From assembly GCA_017472635.1 (NCBI GenBank), contig JAFUPU010000002.1:1-64000 (forward strand): a stretch of 64,000 bases of DNA, in the 5' to 3' direction. Both the position numbers and the translations under genes were made by a program. Source of the stretch: Bacteroidaceae bacterium (GTDB lineage: Bacteria; Bacteroidota; Bacteroidia; Bacteroidales; Bacteroidaceae). Numbering within the stretch: position 1 is the first letter of the stretch; each line of letters begins with the position of its first letter. Below the pieces are notes generated by a model. The model searched no databases, had not been told where the DNA came from, and saw only the letters and a program-made list of their open reading frames with translations. This document shows positions 618 to 36,528 of the stretch, one piece after another.

Positions 618-950
618 GACATTTTCAGGAAAGGCAAAAAACACCTTTTATATTAACGTGATGAAGAGGAAAGAACCGCGAAGTCTTCCATTATTGGTGT
701 CTTTTGAGGAAAACCTTCTTGTTATTGCGAATGTATATGCCTGGTCGGGTGACTTTGTCAACGACTCTTCCCGTCAGGTCATAGAGTATGCCGTCGTTTG
801 TCGGACCATATCTGACAGGTTGGATGGTATTGGGCGCAGCCTCTTCCCATTGCCATCCCATCTGACGGTTGGCAGGTGCAGAAATTTGTCTTTTTTTCGG
901 GTTTGTCAGGCGAAGTCTGTTATCAGGAATTCATAAGATGGAGGGTGTGA

Positions 951-1325
951 AAGATGAATGGAAGTACCTCCTTTCACCTGTAACCATCTGTAGTATAAGA
1001 TGGTATAGGTGAAATGAAACGAACGGAATGGGTGATGGAAATACAAGTATAGGAGGAGTGAATAAGAATATCAATTTTGTCGCAACGGATATAACAAATG
1101 TCTCATTCCACCTCTATCTGGCATAGAATGAGACTATTATAGGAATCATCTTTTCGAGACGGATTAGTTGCTTGAAAAATTCAGCTATCTCCTCGATAAT
1201 TTCAAAAATCTCCAGGACATAGCTTCATCTGTTGCAGGACTCAGCCACGTGAGTCCTGCAACCGGTGAGGCTGAGTCCTGCAACAGAATGACCTGAGTCC
1301 TGCCACTTTTTTTGCCTCGTATACA
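951..1325 (+). repeat. Dispersed intergenic repeat, copy 1
   Basis: About 350-375 bp that align end to end with the reverse complement of 34206-34550. Shared blocks include ATACAAGTATAGGAGG, CGGATATAACAAATGTCTC, TTTCAAAAATCTCCAGGAC and GAGTCCTGCAAC, in the same order. No coding frame and no transposase. The two copies form a long-range inverted pair about 33 kb apart. Confidence 0.8.
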
Positions 1326-8550: not shown

Positions 8551-8754
8551 TATGTAATTCTATGGGTTGTTGCTGTATTTCAAACCAGTGTAAAAAACGA
8601 AGTCCCACCGTGGTACGCATTGTCAAGAGGCGTGGTGGGAACTGTTGTTGCAAAGGTATGTGTTTTTTCTGTATTTACCAACGGATAGCATGAGAAAAGT
8701 TCTTTTAGCCCCAACTTTGACAAATGTCTATTATATATAATAAGGTATATAGAT

Positions 8755-24386: not shown

Positions 24387-24422
24387 ATATAAATGTCTGA
24401 TAATTCAGCTGTTATTAAACTT

Positions 24423-24455
24423 AAAGAGGGTGTGATGCACCCTCTTTTTTTGTGT
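24423..24455 (+). terminator. Rho-independent terminator of the por operon
   Basis: AAAGAGGGTG / CACCCTCTTTTTTT stem-loop starting 36 nt after the porN stop. Confidence 0.88.
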
Positions 24456-24620
24456 GAATATTGCTGTTTCAAGATGCTTCCATTTACTTTGTATTTGCTG
24501 GTGGAAAGCCTATTCCAGATACTCCTTCCTTGAATTATGCTCTTGTTGGTTGATTTATAGATTTGTATATGTATAGAGCATATATTAAATATACTTGAAG
24601 AGTAATCTTCTTATGCCGTC

Positions 24621-24700
24621 TCACCCGAGTGATAGACCCTTATCACCCGGGTGATATATTCGCATCACCCAAGTGATAAACTCGTCTTACACGTGTGATA
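24621..24700. repeat. Four 14-bp palindromes at exact 22-bp spacing
   Basis: TCACCCGAGTGATA (24621), TCACCCGGGTGATA (24643), TCACCCAAGTGATA (24665) and TTACACGTGTGATA (24687). The outer TCAC/GTGA arms are kept while the centre varies between copies. The spacing equals about two DNA helix turns, so bound dimers would line up on one face. It lies between the por terminator and the promoter at 24936. Multi-site operator or small tandem repeat; no spacers and no cas genes, so not CRISPR. Confidence 0.75.
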
Positions 24701-24935
24701 CGATATTATAGAAGGGGATTTTTGCTGCCTTAAACCTGCCTGTCAGGCTATGCAAGCCTTATCTATAGTAGCAGCAGATGTCTTTTGCTGCGGATGTAAC
24801 GATATCCGGTCATCTTTTTGAATATTAATTCGATGAATGATATGCAAAATGAATAATCAGCCCAAAAAGGATACAAAGATTCAGGAGGGAAACGATTTTT
24901 AACACTCATTTTTCTCTTTATTCATATATTAAGAC

Positions 24936-24943
24936 TACTTTTG
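24936..24943 (+). promoter_or_regulatory. -7 promoter box TACTTTTG
   Basis: TAnnTTTG match 320 nt upstream of the next coding start; it marks the 5' end of the structured region at 24950-25190. Confidence 0.55.
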
Positions 24944-24949
24944 CGAATA

Positions 24950-25190
24950 ATTAGCCTATAGTGGTGGGCTAAAACTGACATTGCGGAAAAGATATAGCGT
25001 TTGCTATTATTCTATATCGTCGTTGAAACTTAGGAACTTTCAAAGATTATACGGTAAGAATAAGATGGCAGATGCCTGCGCATAGCGCAGGTGCATCTTG
25101 TTACTTTGTATAATCGGGTATCCTAAGACCTCAACGACGAAGGGCATAAAAGGTGTGCTTGCGCTTCTTTTATATGTCTGAGGCTTAGGA
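24950..25190 (+). ncRNA. Rod-shaped structured RNA or leader (6S-like shape)
   Basis: After the promoter box come a small hairpin TTAGCC/GGCTAA (24952-24971) and a long rod: CGTCGTTGA (25018-25026) pairs with TCAACGACG (25131-25139), TTAGGA (25030-25035) with TCCTAA (25121-25126), GATTATAC (25045-25052) with GTATAATC (25108-25115), GTAA with TTAC, AAGATG (25062-25067) with CATCTT (25094-25099), and a cap TGCGC-ATA-GCGCA. A rod with a central internal loop recalls 6S RNA, but I cannot confirm the family. It may instead be the 5' leader of the envelope operon starting at 25266. Confidence 0.6.
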
Positions 25191-25265
25191 TACTACTTTC
25201 ACTATTTTCCCCTTTCTGCTATCAGGTGGTGAAACTGATTAGTTAATCGTTAAAACAATAGAGAC

Positions 25266-25952
25266 ATGAAAAAGTTTATGATTGCCGCCATGGCATTGAT
25301 GTTGTGCGGAACTGCTGCTACTTATGCACAGACTGCCGAAGAAAAGAGAGAACAACGTAAGGAAATCGCAAAAATGACTCGCGATGAAGTGACCAAGAAA
25401 GTGACCAAAGAGGCACGCAAAGAGGCAAAGCGCCTGAAGCGTGAAGATTGGGAAGTGGCTCCTGGTGCACTGCCTATGGAGAAGCAGCTTGACCGTTCGT
25501 TTGCTATGCAGTATGAGGTAGACGATGACGGATATCCAAAGTACCTGATGAGTGAGGCTATGAGCATTGGGGAAAACTATGATGCCGCCAAGGTACAGGC
25601 GATAGCGCTGGCAAAACAGAATTTGGCAGGAAACGTGCAGACCGAAGTGAGTGGACTGATTGACAACATGGTTTCAAACAAGCAACTGACTGCCGGTGAG
25701 GCTGCTTCGCTGACCGAGACAACGATGGCAAGCAAAGCACTGATTTCACAAAACATTGGTCGTACGATCACTGTCACAGAGATGTATCGTGACTTGAGTA
25801 ACAACAAAAAAGAGGTGTTGGTGCGTATTGCCTATAGCAACGACCTTGCCATCGAGGCAGCTAAGAAAGCAATCCGTCAAGGCATGCAGGACAAGGGCGA
25901 TGCACTGCTTGGAAAGCTGGAAGAATTGTTGAACAAGCTGGGCGAGAAATAA
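25266..25952 (+). CDS. Exported LPP20-like protein
   Basis: 228 residues with a signal peptide (after TYA, about residue 21). Residues 22-60 are a charged helix rich in Lys, Arg and Glu (EEKREQRKEIAKMTRDEV). The remainder contains the AKVQAIALAKQNLAGNV helix and an ITVTEMYRDL..KEVLVRIAYS strand pair, the pattern of LPP20/FlgT-N-type alpha-beta domains that occur in outer-membrane-associated proteins. Function unknown. It opens a run of same-strand genes: the next start lies 3 nt after its stop, indicating one transcript with the DUF4384 gene. Confidence 0.7.
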   Translation: MKKFMIAAMALMLCGTAATYAQTAEEKREQRKEIAKMTRDEVTKKVTKEARKEAKRLKREDWEVAPGALPMEKQLDRSFAMQYEVDDDGYPKYLMSEAMSIGENYDAAKVQAIALAKQNLAGNVQTEVSGLIDNMVSNKQLTAGEAASLTETTMASKALISQNIGRTITVTEMYRDLSNNKKEVLVRIAYSNDLAIEAAKKAIRQGMQDKGDALLGKLEELLNKLGEK

Positions 25953-25955
25953 AGA

Positions 25956-26852
25956 ATGAAGTTACGCTTACTTGCAATGTGTGTGCTGGCAATGCTCTGT
26001 GGAGTGTTGCCGGCACACAACACCAAGACCGTAGAGGCTACCTATATATATATAGCTTCTCGCAACGAGTCTCTTGAAGCTGCATGTGAGAAAGCACTCG
26101 AACGTGCCAAGCTGCAAGCCATAGCCGATGAGTTTGGGACGTTGGTTACTCAAACCGATATCACCCATGTGGTAAACCGGGACGGTGAATCGTCTATCGA
26201 TTTTGAAGCGTTGGGTGGCACGGAGGTCAAGGGCGAGTGGTTGGAGACCATTGGCGAACCGGAGTTCAAAGAAGATTGGGATGCAGAGAAAAAAATGCAT
26301 GTAGTCACCTGTAAGGTGAAGGGACGCATTCGGGAAATAAAGTCGGCTGCAGTAGATTTCGAGGCAAAACTACTCTACAATCATGCCGACCCGCAGTCTG
26401 AGAAATACGAGTTTCGGCATGGCGAGAAGTTTTATCTCTCATTCCGTGCACCGGTCAATGGATATGTGGCTGTATATATGGTAGACAACATTTCGGGAAG
26501 AGCCTTTCGTTTGTTGCCCGACCGCTATGACGACGATGGGCAGGTGCAGGTCAAGCGTGAAAAGCAATATTGTTTCTTCTCAAAAAGGTCAGCTCCACGC
26601 GGACAACGGGTTTCTGAATATATGGCAACCTGCCACGACGAGGTTGAGGTAAACTATCTTTATATCCTCTTTTCGCCTAACCGGTTCTTCAAGGCTTTAG
26701 ACAATCCGGTCAGTCAAAAAGAGGGAACCGACCTTATGTTGCCTAACTCGTTGACAATAGAGAAATTTCAGAAATGGCTGACCAAGTGTCGTGTCAAAGA
26801 CAATGAAATGCGGGTAGAGATTAAAAGTATAACGTGTAGAAAGAAAGAATAG
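25956..26852 (+). CDS. Exported FlgT-N-like plus DUF4384 protein
   Basis: 298 residues with a signal peptide (after LPA, about residue 20). The first half has the alpha-beta pattern of FlgT-N/LPP20 domains (EACEKALERAKLQAIADEFG, then a CKVKGRIRE strand). The second half, FYLSFRAPVNGYVAVYMVDNI onward to LYILFSPNRF, matches DUF4384, a beta-sandwich that is often encoded beside or fused to caspase-fold peptidases and kinases. This fits its position two genes before a caspase-fold protease. Periplasmic, probably a binding or scaffold protein. Separated by 3 nt from the barrel gene at 26856. Confidence 0.75.
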   Translation: MKLRLLAMCVLAMLCGVLPAHNTKTVEATYIYIASRNESLEAACEKALERAKLQAIADEFGTLVTQTDITHVVNRDGESSIDFEALGGTEVKGEWLETIGEPEFKEDWDAEKKMHVVTCKVKGRIREIKSAAVDFEAKLLYNHADPQSEKYEFRHGEKFYLSFRAPVNGYVAVYMVDNISGRAFRLLPDRYDDDGQVQVKREKQYCFFSKRSAPRGQRVSEYMATCHDEVEVNYLYILFSPNRFFKALDNPVSQKEGTDLMLPNSLTIEKFQKWLTKCRVKDNEMRVEIKSITCRKKE

Positions 26853-26855
26853 ATC

Positions 26856-27359
26856 ATGAAAAAAATAATACTTGTTTCACTATTACTGATGGTGAGTCTT
26901 GTTGGTTTTGCTCAAAAAGGCAGACATGCTGTAGGGGTGGATGTTGCGATGAAAGCATACGATGCAGGACATGATGAAATATTTGGAATGTTTGGAGGTC
27001 TCTTTTTTGGGGTGAAATACCAATATAATTTTCATGATTATTTTCGGGTTGAGCCTTCTTATCAACGTAAACAAGATGATAAAGCAGGTTATACGGATAT
27101 CTTCGGAGTCAATCTGCATGGATTCTTTATGTCTCCCAGACCCTTCAGACCTTATGCTTTTATAGGAGTTGGAGGAGGACAGGCTGAATATGATTTACCT
27201 GATGCGACCTATAATAAATACGATGAAACCGAATTTTATATGCAGGCAGGAGTGGGAGTTGATTGGCGAATTGGTTACAGGCTTTCGTGGCAATTGGAAG
27301 TCGGTGGGAATATATCAATTGCTCCTATTATTTCTACCGGTTTAACATATGGTTTCTAA
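26856..27359 (+). CDS. Small outer-membrane beta-barrel protein
   Basis: 167 residues with a signal peptide (after GFA, about residue 19). Strand-turn patterns such as FGGLFFGVKYQYNFHDYFRVEPSYQ, FRPYAFIGVGGGQAEY and SWQLEVGGNISIAPIISTGLTYGF with a C-terminal Phe mark an OmpA-N-like 8-strand barrel. More A+T-rich than its neighbours. It lies between the DUF4384 gene and the first caspase gene; no specific role is visible. Confidence 0.75.
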   Translation: MKKIILVSLLLMVSLVGFAQKGRHAVGVDVAMKAYDAGHDEIFGMFGGLFFGVKYQYNFHDYFRVEPSYQRKQDDKAGYTDIFGVNLHGFFMSPRPFRPYAFIGVGGGQAEYDLPDATYNKYDETEFYMQAGVGVDWRIGYRLSWQLEVGGNISIAPIISTGLTYGF

Positions 27360-27382
27360 ATAAGGAAATAAGTTGGAATAAG

Positions 27383-28777
27383 ATGAAGAATAGGATATTA
27401 CTTCTGTTTTTTGCCGTTATATCAACATCGGCTTATGCCCAACACAGTATCAATATAGAAGGTACTGAGTTTAATTTGTCGGTTGACAATAACAACATGA
27501 CAGCTGCCATTGTTGATTATGAATATCGGGTGGATGAACGAAAGTATCCGATGTATGAATGGAAACGTAAGTTGGCAAATGTTAAAAATATAAGGGTATT
27601 AAATATTCCTGCTACTGTAGCAATAGACGGCTATGAGTATACTGTTACATACATCGGACGGGCTGCTTTTGCAGGTTTTCGGAATATAGATCAGGTGATA
27701 ATCCCTAATACTGTGCAAAGCATTGGAGATTATGCCTTCTTTCGCTCTTCGGTTACGAGTGTAGAGATTCCTGCTTCCGTTAAATCTATTGGAGATCGTG
27801 CTTTCGGACATTGTACGAAGTTAAAGAAACTGACGTTGCCTAATGCTACAATCAAATTGGGAAAAGACCTCTATTCCGAAAGTAAGTATTTAGTCGTAGA
27901 CTATGCCCAACTGCTCACAAAGGATGTTGCAGAATCTACCCCGAAAGTACCAGAAGGGAAACAACCGAATCCGACAGTTCCAAGCTCTCTTGCTTCCTCC
28001 GACGTTGATATAGATATCCCCACTGTATCGGGAAGTAATGAAAGTACCTTTGCCATCATCATAGCCAATGAGTATTATCAGACAGAGAGTGCGGTACATT
28101 ATGCCCTCAATGATGGACGTACATTCAAAAGTTATTGCCAGAATGTGTTGGGCATTCCTGAAGAGAATATCCACCTGCGTGAAAATGCAACACTCAACAA
28201 TATACAGGCAGAGATAGATTGGGTGGGTAAGGTTGCCAGAGTCTATGAAGGACAAGCCAACATTATTGTCTATTATGCCGGACACGGGATACCCGATGAA
28301 GCTACCGGAAGTTCTTATCTGTTGCCGGTAGATGGTGTGGGCAACAATGTGAAGACCGGCTATAGCCTGGAAACACTCTATGCTACATTGGGTGCCATGC
28401 CTGCCAAAGCTGTTACTGTTTTTATGGATGCCTGCTTCAGCGGCTCGTTGCGTGGCGATGGCATGTTGGCGGCAGCTCGTGGCGTAGCCATCTATGTGGA
28501 GGAAGAAGCACCACAAGGAAACATGGTTGTCTTCTCGGCAGCACAAGGCGATGAAACGGCTTATCCCTATGCTGAAAAGGGACACGGGCTCTTTACCTAT
28601 TACCTGTTGAAGAAACTGAAAGAGACCAAAGGTAATGTTTCATACGGTGAGTTGGCTACTTACCTGAAGCAACAGGTCAGCCGTCGTTCTATAGTGGTGA
28701 ACAGCAAGTCACAGACACCGGTCACTTCAGCATCGGTAAACATGGATGGGAAGTGGGAAAAGATGAAATTACGATAA
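27383..28777 (+). CDS. Exported caspase-fold protease with BspA-like leucine-rich repeats
   Basis: 464 residues from ATG at 27383, which gives a clean signal peptide (MKNRILLLFFAVISTSAYA); a longer upstream frame overlaps the previous gene and is rejected. Residues about 75-165 are LRR_5/BspA-type repeats (YIGRAAFAGFRNIDQVIIPN, SIGDYAFFRSSVTSVEIP, SIGDRAFGHCTKLKKLTLP). The C-terminal half is a C14 caspase/metacaspase-like domain with catalytic His301 in YYAGHG and Cys351 in MDACFSG. An LRR module for recognition joined to a cysteine protease, exported, suggests action on envelope or host proteins; substrate unknown. 18 nt before the paralogous caspase gene. Confidence 0.88.
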   Translation: MKNRILLLFFAVISTSAYAQHSINIEGTEFNLSVDNNNMTAAIVDYEYRVDERKYPMYEWKRKLANVKNIRVLNIPATVAIDGYEYTVTYIGRAAFAGFRNIDQVIIPNTVQSIGDYAFFRSSVTSVEIPASVKSIGDRAFGHCTKLKKLTLPNATIKLGKDLYSESKYLVVDYAQLLTKDVAESTPKVPEGKQPNPTVPSSLASSDVDIDIPTVSGSNESTFAIIIANEYYQTESAVHYALNDGRTFKSYCQNVLGIPEENIHLRENATLNNIQAEIDWVGKVARVYEGQANIIVYYAGHGIPDEATGSSYLLPVDGVGNNVKTGYSLETLYATLGAMPAKAVTVFMDACFSGSLRGDGMLAAARGVAIYVEEEAPQGNMVVFSAAQGDETAYPYAEKGHGLFTYYLLKKLKETKGNVSYGELATYLKQQVSRRSIVVNSKSQTPVTSASVNMDGKWEKMKLR

Positions 28778-28795
28778 ACATGAAATAACATAGAT

Positions 28796-30466
28796 ATGAA
28801 GAAAACAATATTCTTTTTGTTAGCATGCCTGTTTGCGGTAGCCGGGATGGCACAACGTTTCAGTTACACCTATAAGGGGGTGACCTTCAGGTGTAAGGTC
28901 GAAAAGAAGAGTTATGTATGCATCACTCAGTTTGATGTTGATGCCGACAAGGTGGTGATACCTGCCAACGTTTCTCATGAGGGGAAATCGTATCCGGTGA
29001 AGCGGATAGACACCTTCATCAATGGTCATAACTATCTGGCAACCTCGTTGCTCGTCGAAGAGGGCGTAGAACAAATCGATGCCTATTCGTTCAATGAGTT
29101 CCGCAAACTCAAAGAGGTGATACTTCCTTCGTCCATCAAGCGGGTAGGGAAGAATGCTTTCCGTGAAAACAAAGGGATGACCTTCAACCTTGCCTCTGCT
29201 GCTTTGAGCGAGGCAGACCTGCGTGACGGAAAGAGTATAGAACCGGGCAAGTCATCTCGTTCGGACAATACCCTGTTGGCAAAACGGGAGGTTGAGTCCA
29301 AAAAGGAACAGAAGGAAGTGACAGTCAATATCAATGCTTTGAGCCTCTCTCCGAAGAAACCGAGCGTGCCGTCGGTAGACCTGAAACGTCAGGAGAAAGA
29401 ACGCAAAGCCCGTGAAAAAGCAGAAGAGGAGGCGCGCAAGCAAGCAGAACAGCAGGCAAAAGAGGCTGAACAGTTGCGATTGGCACAACTGAAGGCTGCT
29501 GAGGAAGAGCGTATCCGTAAAGAGAAAGAGGAAGCACGCCTGGCAGAGGAAGAGCGAAAACGTCAACTGGCTTTGGCTGAAGAGCAACGCAAAGAGCAGG
29601 AACGGTTGGCGAAAGTGAAACGTGAACAAGAGGCACTCCGCTTGGCAGAAGAGCGTAGAAGACAAGAAGAGTTGGCGCGCTTGAACATCAACGTAGACAA
29701 GAATATACCCGAGAATACGCGCTACAATGGCGACACCTATTGTGTGATTATCGCCAACGAGAACTATACCGATGTTCCTAAGGTAGATTATGCATTGAAC
29801 GACGGACGGGTATTCAAGGAGTATTGCGTAAAGACGTTGGGAATACCCGAGAAGCGCATCCGCACCTTCCTCGATGCTTCATATACCGACATGAAGCGTG
29901 CCATTGCCTTTATGGAGAATGCTGCCAAGGTCACTCAGGGAAAGGGAAGGCTCATCTTCTACTATGCCGGACATGGTATGCCTAACGACCAAGACAAGGC
30001 TGCTTATCTGATACCTACCGATGCCTATCCGAAAGAGATTTCTACCTGTTTCAAGATGAGTGACCTTTACCGTCAGTTGGGACGGCTGAATGTGGCAAGC
30101 TGCACGGTGTTGCTCGATGCCTGTTTCAGTGGTGTGCAGCGTGGTAAGGAGGAGATGCTGATAGCCGGGCGTGGTGTAGCCTATGCACCTGACGAAGAGG
30201 AACTGACCGGTAATGTGGTAGTGCTCTCGGCTGCCAGCAAAGAAGAGACAGCCCATGCCTACGAAAAGCACCAGCATGGTATGTTCACTTATTTCTTGTT
30301 GAACAAGCTGTCGCAGACCAAAGGCGATGTTACCCTCGAAGAACTCTTCAAGTTTGTCAACGCCAACGTGATGCAGACTTCGTTTGACGAGAACCAGAAA
30401 CTGCAGACACCCTCGGTCAATGCCTCCGATGCCATGACAGAGAAGTGGAAGGAAATCTATTTTTGA
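28796..30466 (+). CDS. Exported caspase-fold protease with long coiled coil
   Basis: 556 residues with signal peptide (after GMA, about residue 19). An N-terminal module resembles one or two BspA-type repeats (VEQIDAYSFNEFRKLKEVILP). Residues about 198-295 are an almost uninterrupted charged coiled coil rich in Glu, Arg, Lys and Ala. A C14 caspase domain follows, with His393 in YYAGHG and Cys443 in LDACFSG. The catalytic domain is clearly paralogous to that of the preceding gene (YALNDGR, YCVKTLGIPE, LSAASKEETA). The coiled coil may span the periplasm or drive oligomerisation. Function inferred only from fold. Confidence 0.88.
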   Translation: MKKTIFFLLACLFAVAGMAQRFSYTYKGVTFRCKVEKKSYVCITQFDVDADKVVIPANVSHEGKSYPVKRIDTFINGHNYLATSLLVEEGVEQIDAYSFNEFRKLKEVILPSSIKRVGKNAFRENKGMTFNLASAALSEADLRDGKSIEPGKSSRSDNTLLAKREVESKKEQKEVTVNINALSLSPKKPSVPSVDLKRQEKERKAREKAEEEARKQAEQQAKEAEQLRLAQLKAAEEERIRKEKEEARLAEEERKRQLALAEEQRKEQERLAKVKREQEALRLAEERRRQEELARLNINVDKNIPENTRYNGDTYCVIIANENYTDVPKVDYALNDGRVFKEYCVKTLGIPEKRIRTFLDASYTDMKRAIAFMENAAKVTQGKGRLIFYYAGHGMPNDQDKAAYLIPTDAYPKEISTCFKMSDLYRQLGRLNVASCTVLLDACFSGVQRGKEEMLIAGRGVAYAPDEEELTGNVVVLSAASKEETAHAYEKHQHGMFTYFLLNKLSQTKGDVTLEELFKFVNANVMQTSFDENQKLQTPSVNASDAMTEKWKEIYF

Positions 30467-30505
30467 AAACAGTTCGTTTAATCCATAATATAATAAAGAA
30501 ACAGT

Positions 30506-31093
30506 ATGAAAAAGCTTGTAACCCTGTTGGTTGTAGCCCTAATGGCATTGACCGCCTCAGCCCAAGTGACTTGGAATGTAAAAGGTGGCGTGGGCGTGGC
30601 ATCGTGCATTATGGAGGGGGAAGATGAAGAGAATGAAAAATTCGTAGGTAAAATCGGGTTTGGCATAGAGGTTCCTTTTGCTTCCGACTGGTCGCTGATG
30701 CCGTCGTTGGAGATGGCTTGGAAGGGAGCCGTATGGGAAACGCCTGATTTCGATTATAAAGAGACGTTGAATGAGTCGTACCTGCAGATTCCCGTGCTGG
30801 TGGCTTACCGGCTGAACCTGAATCCCCGTTGGAACATGACAATCAAGGCAGGACCTTACGTAGCGCTGTTGCTCTCGGCAAAAGACAAAATTGAATTTAT
30901 GGGTGAAGAACAAGAGGTAGACTTGAGCGATTTGGATGCCAATAAGATAGATGTCGGTATCGATATCGGTGTTGACTTTGAGTATCATCGCTTTGTCTTT
31001 GGCTTGGAGTACGAACTCGGCTTTGTCTCCATGTTGCCGGATGTCGACATCAAAAACTCCGCTGTCTATTTCACCGCCGGGTATAAGTTTTAA
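30506..31093 (+). CDS. Outer-membrane beta-barrel protein (PorT-like)
   Basis: 195 residues, signal peptide after ASA (about residue 19). The mature protein begins QVTWNVKGGVGVAS and ends SAVYFTAGYKF, typical of small Bacteroidota barrels of the PorT/OMP_b-brl type. The stretch GIDIGVDFEYHRFVFGLEYE is nearly repeated in the gene at 32642 (GLNVGIDFEYHRFVFGFEYE), so the two are duplicates flanking the transglutaminase gene. Likely co-transcribed with the caspase genes (39-nt gap). Confidence 0.82.
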   Translation: MKKLVTLLVVALMALTASAQVTWNVKGGVGVASCIMEGEDEENEKFVGKIGFGIEVPFASDWSLMPSLEMAWKGAVWETPDFDYKETLNESYLQIPVLVAYRLNLNPRWNMTIKAGPYVALLLSAKDKIEFMGEEQEVDLSDLDANKIDVGIDIGVDFEYHRFVFGLEYELGFVSMLPDVDIKNSAVYFTAGYKF

Positions 31094-31117
31094 TGAATAG
31101 GAACAAAACATACAACT

Positions 31118-32611
31118 ATGAATAAGAAACATTTCATTATTGCATTCGTTATGGTGTTTGGCTGTACGACCATGCAGGCACAGACTATCGATGACTTCCG
31201 CAAACAGTTTGAAGAGGCAACCGCATTGTGGAAAAAGCAGTTCCGCGACTTCCGCGAAAAGTGCAACCAAGAGTATGCCGACTTTATCCGTCAGCATTGG
31301 GAAGAAAAAGGGGTAGAGCCGCCCCGCGTGATGCCTGAAGACGGCAAACCCATTCCGCCCGACTTCTTGCCCGAGAAAGACCGTCAATTGGTGTTGCAAG
31401 ACAAGTTGGTGCCCCTGTTTGAGATAGTTCCTTATAAGATGCCCGAACCTCAACCAGAGCCGGTGGAACCTATTAAAGAGGTGCCACTGCCCGAGATAGA
31501 AGAGGAGACCACTTTCACCTTCACTTTCCGGGGTACACAAGCCACTGTACGGTTGGGCGACAAGCATCGCTTCCGTATGAACGACTGCACCGAAGAGAGC
31601 GTGGCAAAGGCTTGGGAACATTGCTCGAAGGTTGAGTTTGACAACCTGCTGTTTGATTGCCTGGAACTGCGTAACAAATATCAGCTCTGCGACTGGGCAT
31701 ACCTCGATATGTTGCGCACGTTGGGACGCTCGTTCTTTGGTAAGGGCACCAACGAGGCTGTGTTGCTTACCTCTTACATCTATTGCCAGTCGGGCTATAA
31801 GATGCGTATGGCAAGGGGCGATAGCGGACGCCTTTATATGCTTTATGCCAGCAAGCACCACATCTACGGATACACCTATTTCGTCATAGACAACGAGAGT
31901 TACTATACCATCGACTGCGAAGAAGAGAGCCTGCACATCTGTAAGGCTACCTTCCCCAAAGAGCGTCCCATGTCGCTGTTGGTGGGCAAGGCACCCCGCT
32001 ACGATGTAGGACAGACCAAAGAGCGCACCCTGCAGTCGGCACGTTATGCCAATGTGAAAGCTACTGTGCAGATAAACAAAAACCTCATCGACTTCTACGA
32101 CAGCTATCCACGCTCGGGTTCTGAGATTGACGATAACTTCATGACCCGTTGGGCGATATATGCCAACACCCCATTGGCGGAAGATATCAAGCAGTCGCTC
32201 TATCCGGCACTGCAACAGGTGATTGCCGGACTCTCGGAGAAAGAGGCAGCCAACCGCCTGCTCAATTTCGTACAGACAGGGCTTACCTATGAGTACGACG
32301 AAAAGGTGTGGGGTGACGACCGTGCCTTCTTTGCCGAAGAGAGTCTCTACTATCCCTATGCCGACTGTGAAGACCGTTCGGTACTCTTCTCACGTCTGGT
32401 GCGCGACCTGTTAGGGTTGAAGGTGGTGCTTGTCCACTATCCCGGTCATTTGGCTACGGCTGTCTGCTTCAACGACGAGGTGAAGGGCGACTTCATCCAA
32501 GTCAACGACCAGAAGTTCGTCGTATGCGACCCCACCTTCATTGGCGGTCCGGTAGGATGGACCATGACCAGCTGCCGTAACCAACCTACCACGGTGATAT
32601 TGCTGGATTGA
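31118..32611 (+). CDS. Exported transglutaminase-fold protein
   Basis: 497 residues with a signal peptide (after MQA, about residue 21). The first third is helical with a proline-rich patch (PEPQPEPVEPIKEVPLP). The C-terminal part has the complete papain/transglutaminase-like triad: Cys417 in YADCEDRSVLFS, His444 in PGHLATAV and Asp471 in VCDPTF. Bacterial members act as proteases, amidases or cross-linking enzymes. It shares the operon with two caspase-fold proteases, so the locus exports three cysteine-dependent enzymes. Substrate unknown. Confidence 0.85.
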   Translation: MNKKHFIIAFVMVFGCTTMQAQTIDDFRKQFEEATALWKKQFRDFREKCNQEYADFIRQHWEEKGVEPPRVMPEDGKPIPPDFLPEKDRQLVLQDKLVPLFEIVPYKMPEPQPEPVEPIKEVPLPEIEEETTFTFTFRGTQATVRLGDKHRFRMNDCTEESVAKAWEHCSKVEFDNLLFDCLELRNKYQLCDWAYLDMLRTLGRSFFGKGTNEAVLLTSYIYCQSGYKMRMARGDSGRLYMLYASKHHIYGYTYFVIDNESYYTIDCEEESLHICKATFPKERPMSLLVGKAPRYDVGQTKERTLQSARYANVKATVQINKNLIDFYDSYPRSGSEIDDNFMTRWAIYANTPLAEDIKQSLYPALQQVIAGLSEKEAANRLLNFVQTGLTYEYDEKVWGDDRAFFAEESLYYPYADCEDRSVLFSRLVRDLLGLKVVLVHYPGHLATAVCFNDEVKGDFIQVNDQKFVVCDPTFIGGPVGWTMTSCRNQPTTVILLD

Positions 32612-32641
32612 TAGAATGCTATTCTCATTATTGAAGATTGT

Positions 32642-33250
32642 ATGAGAAGAATTATAATTCTGGTGTTTGCTAGTATGATAGCATGGAGTGTGTCAGCGCA
32701 AATTACTTGGCATGTTAGGGGAGGGGTAGGTTCTTCCTCTGTTGGTACGGAATATGACGGAGATATTGATATTAAAACAAAAATAGTGGGTAAAGTAGGA
32801 ATGGGACTTGAGATACCCTTCGATGCCGATTGGTTATTGATGTCTTCGTTAGAAATAGCTGGAAAAGGAGTAAAGTTCGTAGATGATAAGGCATGTGTTG
32901 ATTACGATCTATTTCTTTATTATGCACAAATACCGATAAATGTTGCTTATCGGCTAAATTTGAGTAATTATTGGAATATGGTATTTAAAGCAGGTATTTA
33001 TTTAGCTTATGCTTTTTCTGGAAAAGACAAGAATGAGAGTATTGTAGAAGGTATGTTAGTTGGAGCATGGGGCGAATATGAATATTATACCCGCCATTTT
33101 GATTTTGGTCTTAACGTTGGGATTGATTTTGAATATCATCGTTTCGTCTTTGGCTTTGAATATGAGCCAGGATTTATTCCTATAATAGAAGATGAATACG
33201 TCAAAGGATGTAACTCAGTTGGTTATGTAACCATAGGGTATAAATTTTAA
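32642..33250 (+). CDS. Outer-membrane beta-barrel protein, paralogue of 30506
   Basis: 202 residues, signal peptide after VSA (about residue 19). Shares QITWHVRGGVGSSS, PFDADWLLMSSLEIAGKG, INVAYRLNLSNYWNM and FEYHRFVFGFEYEPGF with the barrel at 30506, and ends YVTIGYKF. The two proteins are alike along their whole length, but this gene is visibly richer in A and T, hinting at relaxed selection or separate acquisition. Last gene of the 25266-33250 run; the next gene is on the opposite strand. Confidence 0.82.
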   Translation: MRRIIILVFASMIAWSVSAQITWHVRGGVGSSSVGTEYDGDIDIKTKIVGKVGMGLEIPFDADWLLMSSLEIAGKGVKFVDDKACVDYDLFLYYAQIPINVAYRLNLSNYWNMVFKAGIYLAYAFSGKDKNESIVEGMLVGAWGEYEYYTRHFDFGLNVGIDFEYHRFVFGFEYEPGFIPIIEDEYVKGCNSVGYVTIGYKF

Positions 33251-33289: not shown

Positions 33290-33973
33290 CTATTGAGCCT
33301 TTATTGTTTGCTCATCAAACATGTCATTGTCATCAGATTGATTTTGAGTTTGAACCGTTTCTGTTTGAGGGTTTCTGGAACGGTTCATTTCAATGGATGC
33401 CCACAATAATCCCCCGCCTATAAAAAACGTTATACATACAATAACCAAAGAGCGATAACGCATTTGCATAAAATAACGACTGCTCAACAAAACTCCTGCC
33501 GACAGACCTATAAGAGCTAAAGAAATAACAAAAGGCAATACGGCATCAAGTATGGCAAACACACACATTAACGGATAATATATGATGCAAGCATAGAGCG
33601 TCGGTTCGATAAGGAAATGTCCTACAAGTGGCCATATTATAGAATTGAACATCGTCTCTATCATGTCTTGGTTCTTCTCCGTGTGTTTTCTGCCATATTC
33701 ATCCTTGTATACATCATATGCTTGAGTACTCCAATGTCCAAACTTCCCCCAATTTGCAATGGCGAGCACAAATCCTATAGGGAATAAAATACCTAACCAT
33801 GCCGATTCAAAAATATTCCATTCGATAGTAATGCCAAAATCATCTGCGCTAAACATTTCGATAATGAAGAATATGACAATTGCAGATAATGTTCCTCCAC
33901 AAATATAACTGGCTTTTACAAAGTTTGAATCAGAAAACTCTGGTATTTTTTTTAGGTAAGATGATATGTTCAT
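33290..33973 (-). CDS. Multi-spanning membrane protein, unknown function
   Basis: 227 residues, no signal peptide or recognised domain. About five hydrophobic segments can be seen: residues 24-40 (ICGGTLSAIVIFFIIEM), 56-72 (LGILFPIGFVLAIANWG), 125-150, 150-165 (LALIGLSAGVLLSS) and 176-192 (LVIVCITFFIGGGLLWA). A polar, Gln/Asn/Asp-rich tail ends the protein. It converges with the envelope operon (39 nt between stops). I do not recognise the family. Confidence 0.55.
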   Translation of the reverse strand: MNISSYLKKIPEFSDSNFVKASYICGGTLSAIVIFFIIEMFSADDFGITIEWNIFESAWLGILFPIGFVLAIANWGKFGHWSTQAYDVYKDEYGRKHTEKNQDMIETMFNSIIWPLVGHFLIEPTLYACIIYYPLMCVFAILDAVLPFVISLALIGLSAGVLLSSRYFMQMRYRSLVIVCITFFIGGGLLWASIEMNRSRNPQTETVQTQNQSDDNDMFDEQTIKAQ

Positions 33974-34205
33974 GTCTATGAGAGATTATTGCGACAAATT
34001 TATATAATAATCTTGATAATATGATAATTTCCTTTATCATTTTTATAGTAAAGAGCGGAATAATAGAAAAATAGTGAGTTTCTTCCTATTTCTGATATGA
34101 TTATTTCTTTTGTTAGGGATAAAAGTCGCCTGTGAAGTGGATGATGTCGCTAGAGTTGTTGAGACAGTGACTAAAAAGAAGAAAAATCCCTTAAATTGTC
34201 TATTT

Positions 34206-34550
34206 ACGAGATAAAAAAAGTGGCAGGACTTGGGTTGTTCTGTTGCAGGACTCACGCGGCTGAATCCTGCAACAGACGGAGCTATGTCCTGGAGATTTTT
34301 GAAAATAGTGAGGATATGATTGAGAAAATCAAGCAACCAAGCCATATTGAAAAGACACATCCCGTAAATGTCTCATTTCATGTCCGATAGAGGTGGAATG
34401 AGACATTTGTTATATCCGTTGCAACAAAATTGATAGTCTCATTCTACCTCCTATACTTGTATTTACATCACCTCATTCCGCTCGCTTCATTTCACCTCTA
34501 TCGTTTTGTGCAACAAATGGTTACGGGTGAAAGGAAGTGCTTCCATCTTT
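34206..34550 (-). repeat. Dispersed intergenic repeat, copy 2 (inverted)
   Basis: Reverse complement aligns with 951-1325 over its length, including the GGAATG..GTGATG block, CGGATATAACAAATGTCTC, CTCCAGGACATAGCT and GCGTGAGTCCTGCAACAG. Differences are scattered substitutions and small indels, so the copies are not recent. Non-coding. Confidence 0.8.
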
Positions 34551-34638
34551 CTTTCACGACTTCCATCAACCCTTCAACCCTTTTTAGGCGGATGACCGCG
34601 GATTTTTTCAAACTATCAACTCTTTCAACTTCTCAACC

Positions 34639-34676
34639 GCGCGAAGCGCTATCAACCAATCAACTGCGCGAAGCGC
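34639..34676. repeat. Two copies of GCGCGAAGCGC, 27 bp apart
   Basis: 34639-34649 and 34666-34676, each able to form a GCGC/GCGC mini-hairpin, with CATCAA or TATCAA following. Embedded in a TCAAC-rich stretch (34565-34690). Non-coding. Confidence 0.5.
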
Positions 34677-34756
34677 CATCAAGCACATCATTGGTGAGAA
34701 TTTTCAAAAAAGGCACTTTAAGGCATTTTTCTCCCTTCTTATTACGTTTCCAATAA

Positions 34757-34885
34757 CTCTGGACACTTACTGAAAATCTCTGGACACTTACTGAAAAAAG
34801 TATCAAGGAGGACTGAAATAAGTGTCCAGCGTAAATCGAAAAACTCTGGATACTTTTTCCAGTAAGTATCCATAGATTTTTGAAT
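34757..34885. repeat. Cluster of TGGACACTTACTG motifs in both orientations
   Basis: CTCTGGACACTTACTGAAAA occurs at 34757-34776 and again at 34778-34797 (21-bp period). An inverted relative lies at 34811-34829 (GACTGAAATAAGTGTCCAG) and an inverted pair TGGATACTT/AAGTATCCA near 34847-34873. The TGGACAC core equals the half site of the palindrome at 599. Resembles a multi-site operator upstream of the gene at 35046. Confidence 0.6.
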
Positions 34886-35045
34886 AAGTTTGGAGAGTTA
34901 ATTTTTGCGTTTTCTAAGATGTAACGTTTTCGGAAGTGGGATATGGAGAAAAGAAGATGATGAATAGCGACTATTGTTGTCGGTTCTCACAATTATCAAA
35001 CAAAAGTTCCGATGCCTTTGTTTTTAGAGGTATAGGACTTTAAGA

Positions 35046-35609
35046 ATGAAAAATTGGGTGAATGTTTTGTCTATAGTGGCTGTGGCTACGAGTGTGGCTG
35101 CACTTGTTGTATCGTTGTGCAGGATTGAACCGGTAACAGCCGAATGGCTTGGTTTATTCGTGGGAATACTTGGTATGCTTACATCGGTGTTGCTTGGGTG
35201 GCAAGTGTTCAGCATTATCAATTTGAGGGGAATGGAAAGCAAGCTGAAGACGCTGGAAGAGGTGTCGCGTAAAGGCGATTCGGAAGCGATAGGGAAAGCC
35301 TACGATGGAATAGCCACTTTGTATATCACCTCGATTCCCGATGAGAATAAAACGCAAGAAGAGGTGGTGTCCAATCATCTCTACGGATATGTGTTGTTTT
35401 CAACCTTGTCAATGGTAACACATAGCGAGGCTGGAAAATACGAGTATTGTGAATCTACGATAGGTCATCTGCTGAAAATGAATTGGGATAAGCTGAAGAT
35501 AAACGAACGGCAGAGAGATAATATTTTTGATGTGGCAGTAAAAATAACATCCCATGGGAATATAAAGAACTATCCGGATTATTTGCGGTGGATATCCACG
35601 CTTGTGTAG
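35046..35609 (+). CDS. Membrane protein of unknown function, two N-terminal helices
   Basis: 187 residues. Two membrane helices at about residues 5-25 (VNVLSIVAVATSVAALVVSL) and 33-57 (EWLGLFVGILGMLTSVLLGWQVF), then a soluble helical domain of about 125 residues with no catalytic motif. The layout suggests a small membrane-anchored adaptor with a cytoplasmic C-terminus. No recognised family; stand-alone gene between long non-coding regions. Confidence 0.6.
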   Translation: MKNWVNVLSIVAVATSVAALVVSLCRIEPVTAEWLGLFVGILGMLTSVLLGWQVFSIINLRGMESKLKTLEEVSRKGDSEAIGKAYDGIATLYITSIPDENKTQEEVVSNHLYGYVLFSTLSMVTHSEAGKYEYCESTIGHLLKMNWDKLKINERQRDNIFDVAVKITSHGNIKNYPDYLRWISTLV

Positions 35610-35874: not shown

Positions 35875-36528
35875 ATGAAAAAGATTTTAAGTACATTGAT
35901 GGTGGCTGTTGCCCTGTTGTTTGTAGCAGCACCTGCACAAGCCCAGTTTAGCTGGGGTATCAAAGGTGGTGTAAACCTTTCGAAGGTTGATTTTAGTGAT
36001 GCTCCTGCTAATTTGAAAGCCGATAATTTTACCGGTTTCTTCGTTGGTCCGATGGCTGAGTTTACCCTTCCTATCGTAGGGTTGGGTATTGATGGTTCTT
36101 TGCTCTACTCTCAAACAGGTATATCGTTTACAGGTGACGATGAAGAGACTGGTGATAAAATAGATGAAACATTGAAGAGCCACAGCATTGAGATTCCCAT
36201 CAACTTGAAATATTCTATCGGATTGGGAAAATTGGCTTCGGTATATGCGGCTGCCGGTCCTCAGTTTGCTTTTGCTTTGTCACAAGATGAATGGAAAAAT
36301 TACCTGTCAAAGCCTTTTAAGAAAAGCCAACTTAGCTTGAATCTTGGTGTGGGTGTGAAACTCATCAACCATTTGCAGGCTGGTGTAACTTATAATATCC
36401 CATTGGGAGACACTGCAGACTTTGAGGATATTAAAGATGGTGATGCCGGTGATATGATGAATGCCGGATGGAGTGCTATCACTGCCAAGAACAAAACGTG
36501 GAAAATCCATGTAGCCTATATCTTCTGA
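35875..36528 (+). CDS. PorT-family outer-membrane beta-barrel
   Basis: 217 residues with signal peptide (after AQA, about residue 24). The mature start FSWGIKGGVNLSKVDF and the strands TGFFVGPMAEFTLP, GLGIDGSLLYSQTGIS, IEIPINLKYSIGLG, VYAAAGPQFAFALS and LSLNLGVGVKLINHLQAGVTYNIPLG are the pattern of PorT/OMP_b-brl_2 porin-like proteins; the C-terminus ends IHVAYIF. Function unknown; some family members (PorT) take part in T9SS, but resemblance alone does not show that here. Single gene with its own terminator. Confidence 0.85.
   Translation: MKKILSTLMVAVALLFVAAPAQAQFSWGIKGGVNLSKVDFSDAPANLKADNFTGFFVGPMAEFTLPIVGLGIDGSLLYSQTGISFTGDDEETGDKIDETLKSHSIEIPINLKYSIGLGKLASVYAAAGPQFAFALSQDEWKNYLSKPFKKSQLSLNLGVGVKLINHLQAGVTYNIPLGDTADFEDIKDGDAGDMMNAGWSAITAKNKTWKIHVAYIF

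Follow-up and report, generated by a model that had tools for sequence, protein, structure and literature searches.

We analysed a 64,000-nucleotide stretch of DNA from a Bacteroidaceae bacterium (hereafter the window; its genome, G000, is 65% complete and the window lies on contig C86) and found a putative structured leader RNA in front of a module of eight genes, g1 to g8, which encode two caspase-fold proteins, a predicted transglutaminase-like (TG) enzyme and outer-membrane barrels. With a probability of roughly 0.57, we read this module as an operon that was gained by horizontal transfer, encodes exported enzymes and surface proteins, and is switched by the RNA leader. Because two pairings of one leader strand, d:c and d:f, both covary and exclude each other, the leader is read as a two-state switch, which on sequence evidence would be the best mechanism. 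A search of the open-licence literature returned no paper titled on the gene set or the RNA and no described function for the exported caspase/TG-fold operons, and an earlier description is possible.

The leader RNA and its copies

The initial annotation of this DNA missed the structured element, which lies in the gap at 24387-25265 ahead of g1 (Table 1) and is likely transcribed, with a promoter-like TAnnTTTG box in front of it; TAnnTTTG is the consensus of the Bacteroides-type -7 box. Compared with shuffled sequences, the gap segment folds with a z of -5.8 and the core of the element with a z of -8.7. The leader DNA is 72-90% identical to segments 5' of the first gene of other modules, and the proteins of these modules are mostly 40-64% identical. 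The first ten copies are all preceded by a TAnnTTTG box and share the same long hairpin (z -2.4 to -9.5), least clearly in L026. In a MAFFT alignment of these ten that was not fitted to the structure, two-sided changes occurred in 12 of 46 pairs (28 cells), against 3-6 pairs and 4-10 cells for slid partners.

Table 1. Features of the leader, the eight-gene module and its flanks, in window positions.
Feature	Position	Strand	Description
-7 box, Bacteroides-type, TACTTTTG	24936..24943	+	promoter-like
Structured leader RNA	24951..25170	+	about 220 nt; from folding, covariation and copies
Leader 5' hairpin	24951-24972	+	
Leader H1 hairpin	24994-25007	+	
Leader nested stems P1-P5	25017-25140	+	
Leader strand c	25074-25081	+	pairs with d in P5
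Leader switch strand d	25085..25096	+	3' arm of apical stem P5; complementary to both c and f
Leader segment f	25153-25164	+	followed by a U-rich tail
g1	25266..25952	+	228-aa protein, signal-peptide-like start; LPP20a is a label only
g2	25956..26852	+	DUF4384-like; predicted N-terminal alpha/beta and C-terminal beta domains
g3	26856..27359	+	small outer-membrane barrel (Pfam)
g4	27383..28777	+	BspA leucine-rich repeats and caspase domain, His301/Cys351 (numbered from ATG 27383)
g5	28796..30466	+	leucine-rich-repeat-like N-terminus, charged coiled coil (by eye), caspase domain, His393/Cys443
g6	30506..31093	+	outer-membrane barrel (Pfam)
g7	31118..32611	+	predicted transglutaminase/LapG-fold cysteine enzyme, Cys417/His444/Asp471
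g8	32642..33250	+	outer-membrane barrel (Pfam)
Terminator-like hairpin and T-run after porN	24423..24451	+	11-pair stem 24423-24447, then T-run
Right-flank barrel gene	35875..36528	+	partner gene of the empty site; in two related genomes (L188, L189) its homologue is the gene right after porN

A covariance model found 75 sites in 26 of 61 genomes, 11 of them scoring at least 115 bits (the close copies) and the rest at most 81 bits; the 64 weaker, divergent hits (34.6-80.9 bits) were kept as one set, and low scores were distrusted because three members of the model also score 23-25 bits when read on their reverse strand. Of the 11 close copies, 8 stand before caspase modules, 2 before genes for leucine-rich repeat (LRR) proteins and 1 before an unrelated gene; three of the 8 lie in the window's own genome (C86, C59 and C89). 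Four further close copies came from the named loci, three before a caspase (L092, L109 and L113) and one before a TG gene without a caspase (L128), so that 11 of 15 close-copy sites lie before caspase modules. One close copy heads a lone gene for an LRR-type protein of 4500 residues, in which no caspase domain was matched (L220:1668-15170, minus strand).

Most divergent hits share similar internal loops by eye, the H1 hairpin (AGC...GCU) was found by pattern in 55 of the 64, and segment f (often GUCC-CGC) and the U-run recur outside the model; some members are doubtful (e.g. L272, L275, L283, L290 and L292). Across 80 copies placed on the model, 91.3% of cells pair, and 44 pairs (1076 cells) carry two-sided changes against 24-27 pairs (134-183 cells) for slid partners, in an alignment that was fitted to the structure and whose pair counts therefore lean toward it. 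Independently of the model, the TAnnTTTG box lies 5' of 58 of the 80 copies (3.0 expected from letter shuffles) and of 14 of 14 close copies, and a T5 run lies within 45 bases 3' of 50 of the 80 (15 expected). The d:f pairing reaches runs of at least 9 within the same RNA in 40/80 copies, against 18% of mismatched and 4% of letter-shuffled pairs; with Watson-Crick pairs only, runs of at least 6 occur in 41/80 own pairs against 21.5% and 2.4%, and 70 of the 80 copies hold a d:f run of at least 7.

The element is widespread, being present in at least 59 of 295 genomes of the order, a lower bound with at most ten candidates scored per genome. Twenty of the 63 first genes behind divergent leaders were scanned; they included 11 DNA methyltransferases (10 by Pfam and that of L248 by PADLOC) and two helicase-type genes (L227 and L256), with TPRs in L237, and as the 20 were chosen by start and length, 13/20 is not a rate. 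Others among the first genes begin like lipoproteins or exported proteins (by eye, uncounted). Four viral-collection stretches carry the H1 pattern, and two of these IMG/VR contigs hold a copy of the RNA with other stem sequences (L230:5254-5393 and L232:4104-4243); the 565-aa gene 5' of the RNA in L230 had no NCBIfam match. Rfam 15 gave no gathering-score match in the leader or in 20 copy-bearing loci, the match of the RNA body to SQ1002 being at chance level (15.9 vs 128 bits). The only Rfam match in the window is an abiF RNA at 8603-8639 on the minus strand (44.3 bits, gathering 37).

We put at even odds the broader view that these copies form a new, widespread class of Bacteroidales RNA switches that gates newly acquired operons, namely restriction-modification/helicase operons, giant repeat surface proteins and exported caspase/transglutaminase machines, by a swap between the apical hairpin and a pseudoknot beside the U-run. 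An unlikely alternative is that the hairpin acts alone, as a small RNA, a single-stranded DNA recognition site of mobile elements or a retron-like template that travels with islands. It would account for copies that head many unrelated genes, several of often-acquired kinds, for their presence in two viral-collection contigs and for stems that vary freely while internal loops stay (by eye), as in structure-recognised DNA sites. The excess of promoter-like boxes 5' of the copies speaks against such an element, as does the leader layout at 58 of 64 divergent sites, where a same-strand open reading frame (ORF) of at least 60 aa begins within 135 bases, some of the short ones possibly spurious. 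Moreover, Pfam and NCBIfam scans found no reverse transcriptase in any of the eight genes, and a far sub-threshold transposase match in g5 falls in its coiled coil.

The eight genes and their recurrence

As the initial annotation had it, the plus strand at 25266-33250 holds eight ORFs in tandem, here spaced 3-39 bases apart with g4 counted from its ATG at 27383. Its claim of signal peptides throughout also agrees with the N-termini, as all eight proteins start with a basic stretch followed by a hydrophobic one and none has a strong later membrane segment; this was judged from the N-termini and without a dedicated signal-peptide predictor. The proposed family labels stood in part. The barrels g3, g6 and g8 pass Pfam cut-offs, as does Peptidase_C14 in g4 (3e-20, 73.3 bits) and g5 (4e-21, 76.4 bits; cut-off 21.4), but g2 falls under the cut-off for DUF4384 (23.8 vs 27 bits) and g1 matches neither LPP20 nor any other Pfam family, so both names are used as labels and not as memberships. 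Likewise, LRRs had been assigned to one caspase and a coiled coil to the other; BspA LRRs pass the cut-off in g4 and fall slightly short in g5 (26.9 vs 27.7 bits), and LRR-type N-termini are found on both caspases rather than on g4 alone.

All catalytic residues that had been proposed for g4, g5 and g7 are present in the sequence, and their conservation among relatives is high: of 42 aligned caspase domains (chosen from 69 found), 41 keep the His-Cys dyad, and the Cys-His-Asp triad of g7 is invariant in 21 of 21 chosen relatives. Both caspases carry an Asp two residues before the catalytic Cys, a position that in metacaspases points to Arg/Lys specificity. Residues of about 340-497 of g7 have a predicted fold that matches LapG/transglutaminase in a structure search that tested mainly residues 254-497, which suggests that g7 is a cysteine enzyme of that fold. 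Transglut_core stays under its cut-off in g7 (16.5 vs 23 bits), and one relative passes DUF553 (21.0 vs 20.5). The way helices and strands succeed each other in the g7 model had also suggested tandem transglutaminase domains, an idea that was dropped when comparison of the two halves by hhalign gave a probability of at most 0.1.

The set recurs beyond the window, in line with the co-location that the initial annotation had predicted. Six-frame profile searches around g7 relatives, in the best 80 of 530 loci drawn by g7, found on the same strand as the TG gene the g1 family in 48, the DUF4384 family in 35 and a caspase in 40, against 0, 0 and 2 on the opposite strand. An earlier gene-based count of these neighbourhoods is a lower bound, as it missed genes wherever a longer ORF on the opposite strand overlaps them (in the window, g6 and g7). 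None of the three families was found at 59 background loci, which are shorter (4.8 vs 17.2 kb) and non-random. The g1 family accompanies DUF4384 in 34 of 35 TG loci, the only tight pair in the set, and all four families stand together at G005:C23. TG often closes a gene row whose remaining members vary: the caspases carry LRR, TPR or other N-termini, and further members include WD40-like, PEGA and FGE-sulfatase proteins, CHASE2, a second caspase type and a sigma-factor-like protein.

In a set of 295 genomes from the order, drawn like the other sources mostly from drafts and metagenomes, 70 have TG relatives, 128 a caspase match and 45 both (p = 9e-5), and at least 15 have TG and caspase on the same contig and strand within 10 kb; the 45 and the 15 were picked by eye. 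Among the 61 genomes, DUF4384 relatives occur in 8 and TG relatives in 16, the window's own genome included. Beyond the order, a sample of the phylum gave weak DUF4384 matches only, apart from that genome (7 of 345 genomes with DUF4384). The leader DNA matched 0 plasmid records, and the g7 protein gave one plasmid match at 30% identity. The window's genome also holds a second TG gene at G000:C39:3299-4825 (L083), on a contig where no leader copy was found, and two further caspase modules at C59 (L025) and C89 (L026). The idea of one envelope machine thus has comparative support and is plausible for the TG-fold enzyme, caspases and barrels as a single assembly, judging from gene content, but only g1 and DUF4384 are tightly coupled, and in half of the TG loci no caspase was seen on the same strand.

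It is improbable that these genes form an anti-phage or cell-death system with the caspases as effectors, like the cytosolic bacterial caspase systems. The PADLOC caspase model does match g4 (6e-12) and g5 (2e-5), the distribution is patchy, restriction-modification genes lie behind some divergent leaders, and passages of PMC7159879 and PMC8195603 describe conflict systems whose effector may be either a caspase or a TG-like peptidase; the proteins here look exported, though, the caspase matches cover part of the profile, and PADLOC finds no partner in the eight genes at 0.01. Less probable still, g4 and g5 would be secreted polymorphic-toxin-like proteins whose C-terminal caspase hits rival cells: such domains are known in polymorphic toxins of Bacteroidetes and other phyla, according to part of PMC3482391, but no small immunity-type gene adjoins g4 or g5 and both are embedded in a recurring multi-gene set.

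An island beside type IX secretion genes

The module lies at a site 3' of porN, which we read as variable because other genes follow porN in 5 of the 7 porN loci fetched. In the remaining two the site is empty: in L188, of the same genus, 131 bases past porN comes a homologue (72.6% identical) of the window gene at 35875-36528, and in L189, of another genus, a homologue at 47% identity likewise comes next. In the window itself porN and this gene stand 11 kb apart, with the module plus at least two other genes in between. The module is thus an island at a variable site, and its eight genes were likely acquired horizontally, as far as such comparisons indicate.

To the right of the island lies a dispersed repeat (33974-35045) that also occurs at window positions 937-1321 and has matches elsewhere at 73-95% identity, including the L083 (C39), L025 (C59) and L026 (C89) loci of the same genome; it may mark how islands move. 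The inserted stretch holds two more genes, at 33290-33973 (minus strand), for which NCBIfam gave no match, and at 35046-35609 (plus strand), for which it gave a far sub-threshold match only.

A link to secretion had been proposed from the position of the genes directly after porPKLMN. NCBIfam confirms porK and porN, and porL and porM homologues lie in the same order in relatives, but the neighbourhoods have already largely refuted the view that the operon serves type IX secretion as an accessory, the least probable reading of all. Its beginning 880 bases past porN and the far sub-threshold NCBIfam matches of g3 to PorG (20.9 vs 130 bits) and g4 to PorU (14.4 vs 40) are outweighed by the terminator after porN and the operon's own promoter-like box, by L188 and L189, where porN adjoins the barrel gene and the module is missing, and by the surroundings of the operon's relatives. 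In the 80 TG loci, blastp at 1e-6 found no porP, porL, porM or porN, and porK matches in 6 were taken for other proteins with an FGE-sulfatase domain. Module genes and porN lie on different draft contigs in G005, G013, G046, G053 and G057, and porN was not detected in G002 (76% complete) or G010 (99% complete), both with DUF4384, caspase and TG. Nor did porN co-occur significantly with DUF4384 (6/8 vs 36/53, p = 1) or TG (13/16 vs 29/45, p = 0.35) across the 61 genomes, and Pfam found no Por_Secre_tail sorting domain in the eight proteins. The proposed secretion link was therefore rejected.

Proposed mechanism and closest known systems

In the switched operon as we picture it, transcription would start directly after the TAnnTTTG box and the leader would be made. 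In one state the long hairpin P1-P5 would form; in the other, d would quit the apical stem and pair with f beside the U-run, and this d:f state might halt RNA polymerase, slow it down or mask the start region, with some signal deciding whether the operon is read out. The proteins would reach the periplasm or outer membrane, where the LRR-type N-termini may serve as the sensing part, binding a ligand while they keep the caspase domains in place, with the DUF4384-like and g1 proteins as a possible scaffold for the caspases. Envelope proteins in the surroundings of the three barrels may then be cut or joined by the caspases and the LapG-like TG enzyme. The evidence reaches as far as sequence, covariation and fold prediction, and from these we infer the later steps.

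Several observations count against this picture. On the RNA side, RNAalifold on the unfitted ten-sequence alignment picked competing pairings over P1-P5, and what we read as switch states could be two attempts at one fold; the flank of H1 offers a weak second competing pairing with the 5' strand of P3/P4 (Watson-Crick runs of at least 7 in 34/80 copies, against 17% mismatched and 7% shuffled). The d:f stem spans a long loop, which is unusual for an intrinsic terminator, 30 of the 80 copies have no T5 run, and the d:f run is below 7 in 10. The leader is not specific to the module, since divergent copies head unrelated genes, and a close copy was found at just 9 of 50 caspase-bearing loci, some of which end before the first gene. 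On the protein side, a same-strand caspase was not seen in 40 of the 80 TG loci within the stretch read, and in one caspase relative (L120:6222-7016) both catalytic residues are replaced (His by Leu, Cys by Pro); sitting among paralogues, it is perhaps a decoy or regulator. Export of the eight proteins is suggested by their N-termini, and a single operon for g1-g8 by their spacing.

If the leader is a switch, the timing of expression of acquired operons in gut Bacteroidales, whether for restriction-modification, surface repeats or exported proteases, would be under the control of one RNA class, which would also explain how costly islands of patchy distribution stay silent after transfer. The exported caspase/TG-fold operons would provide abundant gut bacteria with a proteolytic system at their surface.

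Among leaders, the nearest likeness is to attenuators and antitermination leaders, which are promoter-proximal and have competing pairings with a U-run after one. The leader here is likewise promoter-proximal, with competing pairings and a U-run beside one, but unlike in attenuators its second pairing crosses the long hairpin, pseudoknot-like. A sub-threshold match to DUF805b (RF02914; 20.5 vs 35.6 bits) at L226:4947-4981, directly 3' of a divergent leader and before the start codon, suggests that this motif may belong to the tail of some leaders, but the RNA body itself has no gathering-score match.

Among proteins, g4 and g5 resemble the family C14 bacterial caspases (orthocaspases) in their fold and His-Cys dyad, and DUF4384 and caspases are named together in PMC7475262, PMC6426788 and PMC8283722. 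The two proteins differ from those caspases in that they stand in tandem, with signal-peptide-like starts, together with a TG-fold enzyme and barrels and behind a structured RNA. Caspases and TG-like peptidases are also alternative peptidase parts of modular conflict systems, including those of Bacteroidetes, according to PMC7159879 and PMC8195603; unlike the systems described there, the eight genes show no NTPase/MoxR-vWA or adaptor-domain parts by Pfam. Finally, g7 shares its triad and its predicted fold with the periplasmic cysteine protease LapG, from which it differs in a sub-threshold family match and in 340 further N-terminal residues with a proline-rich stretch.

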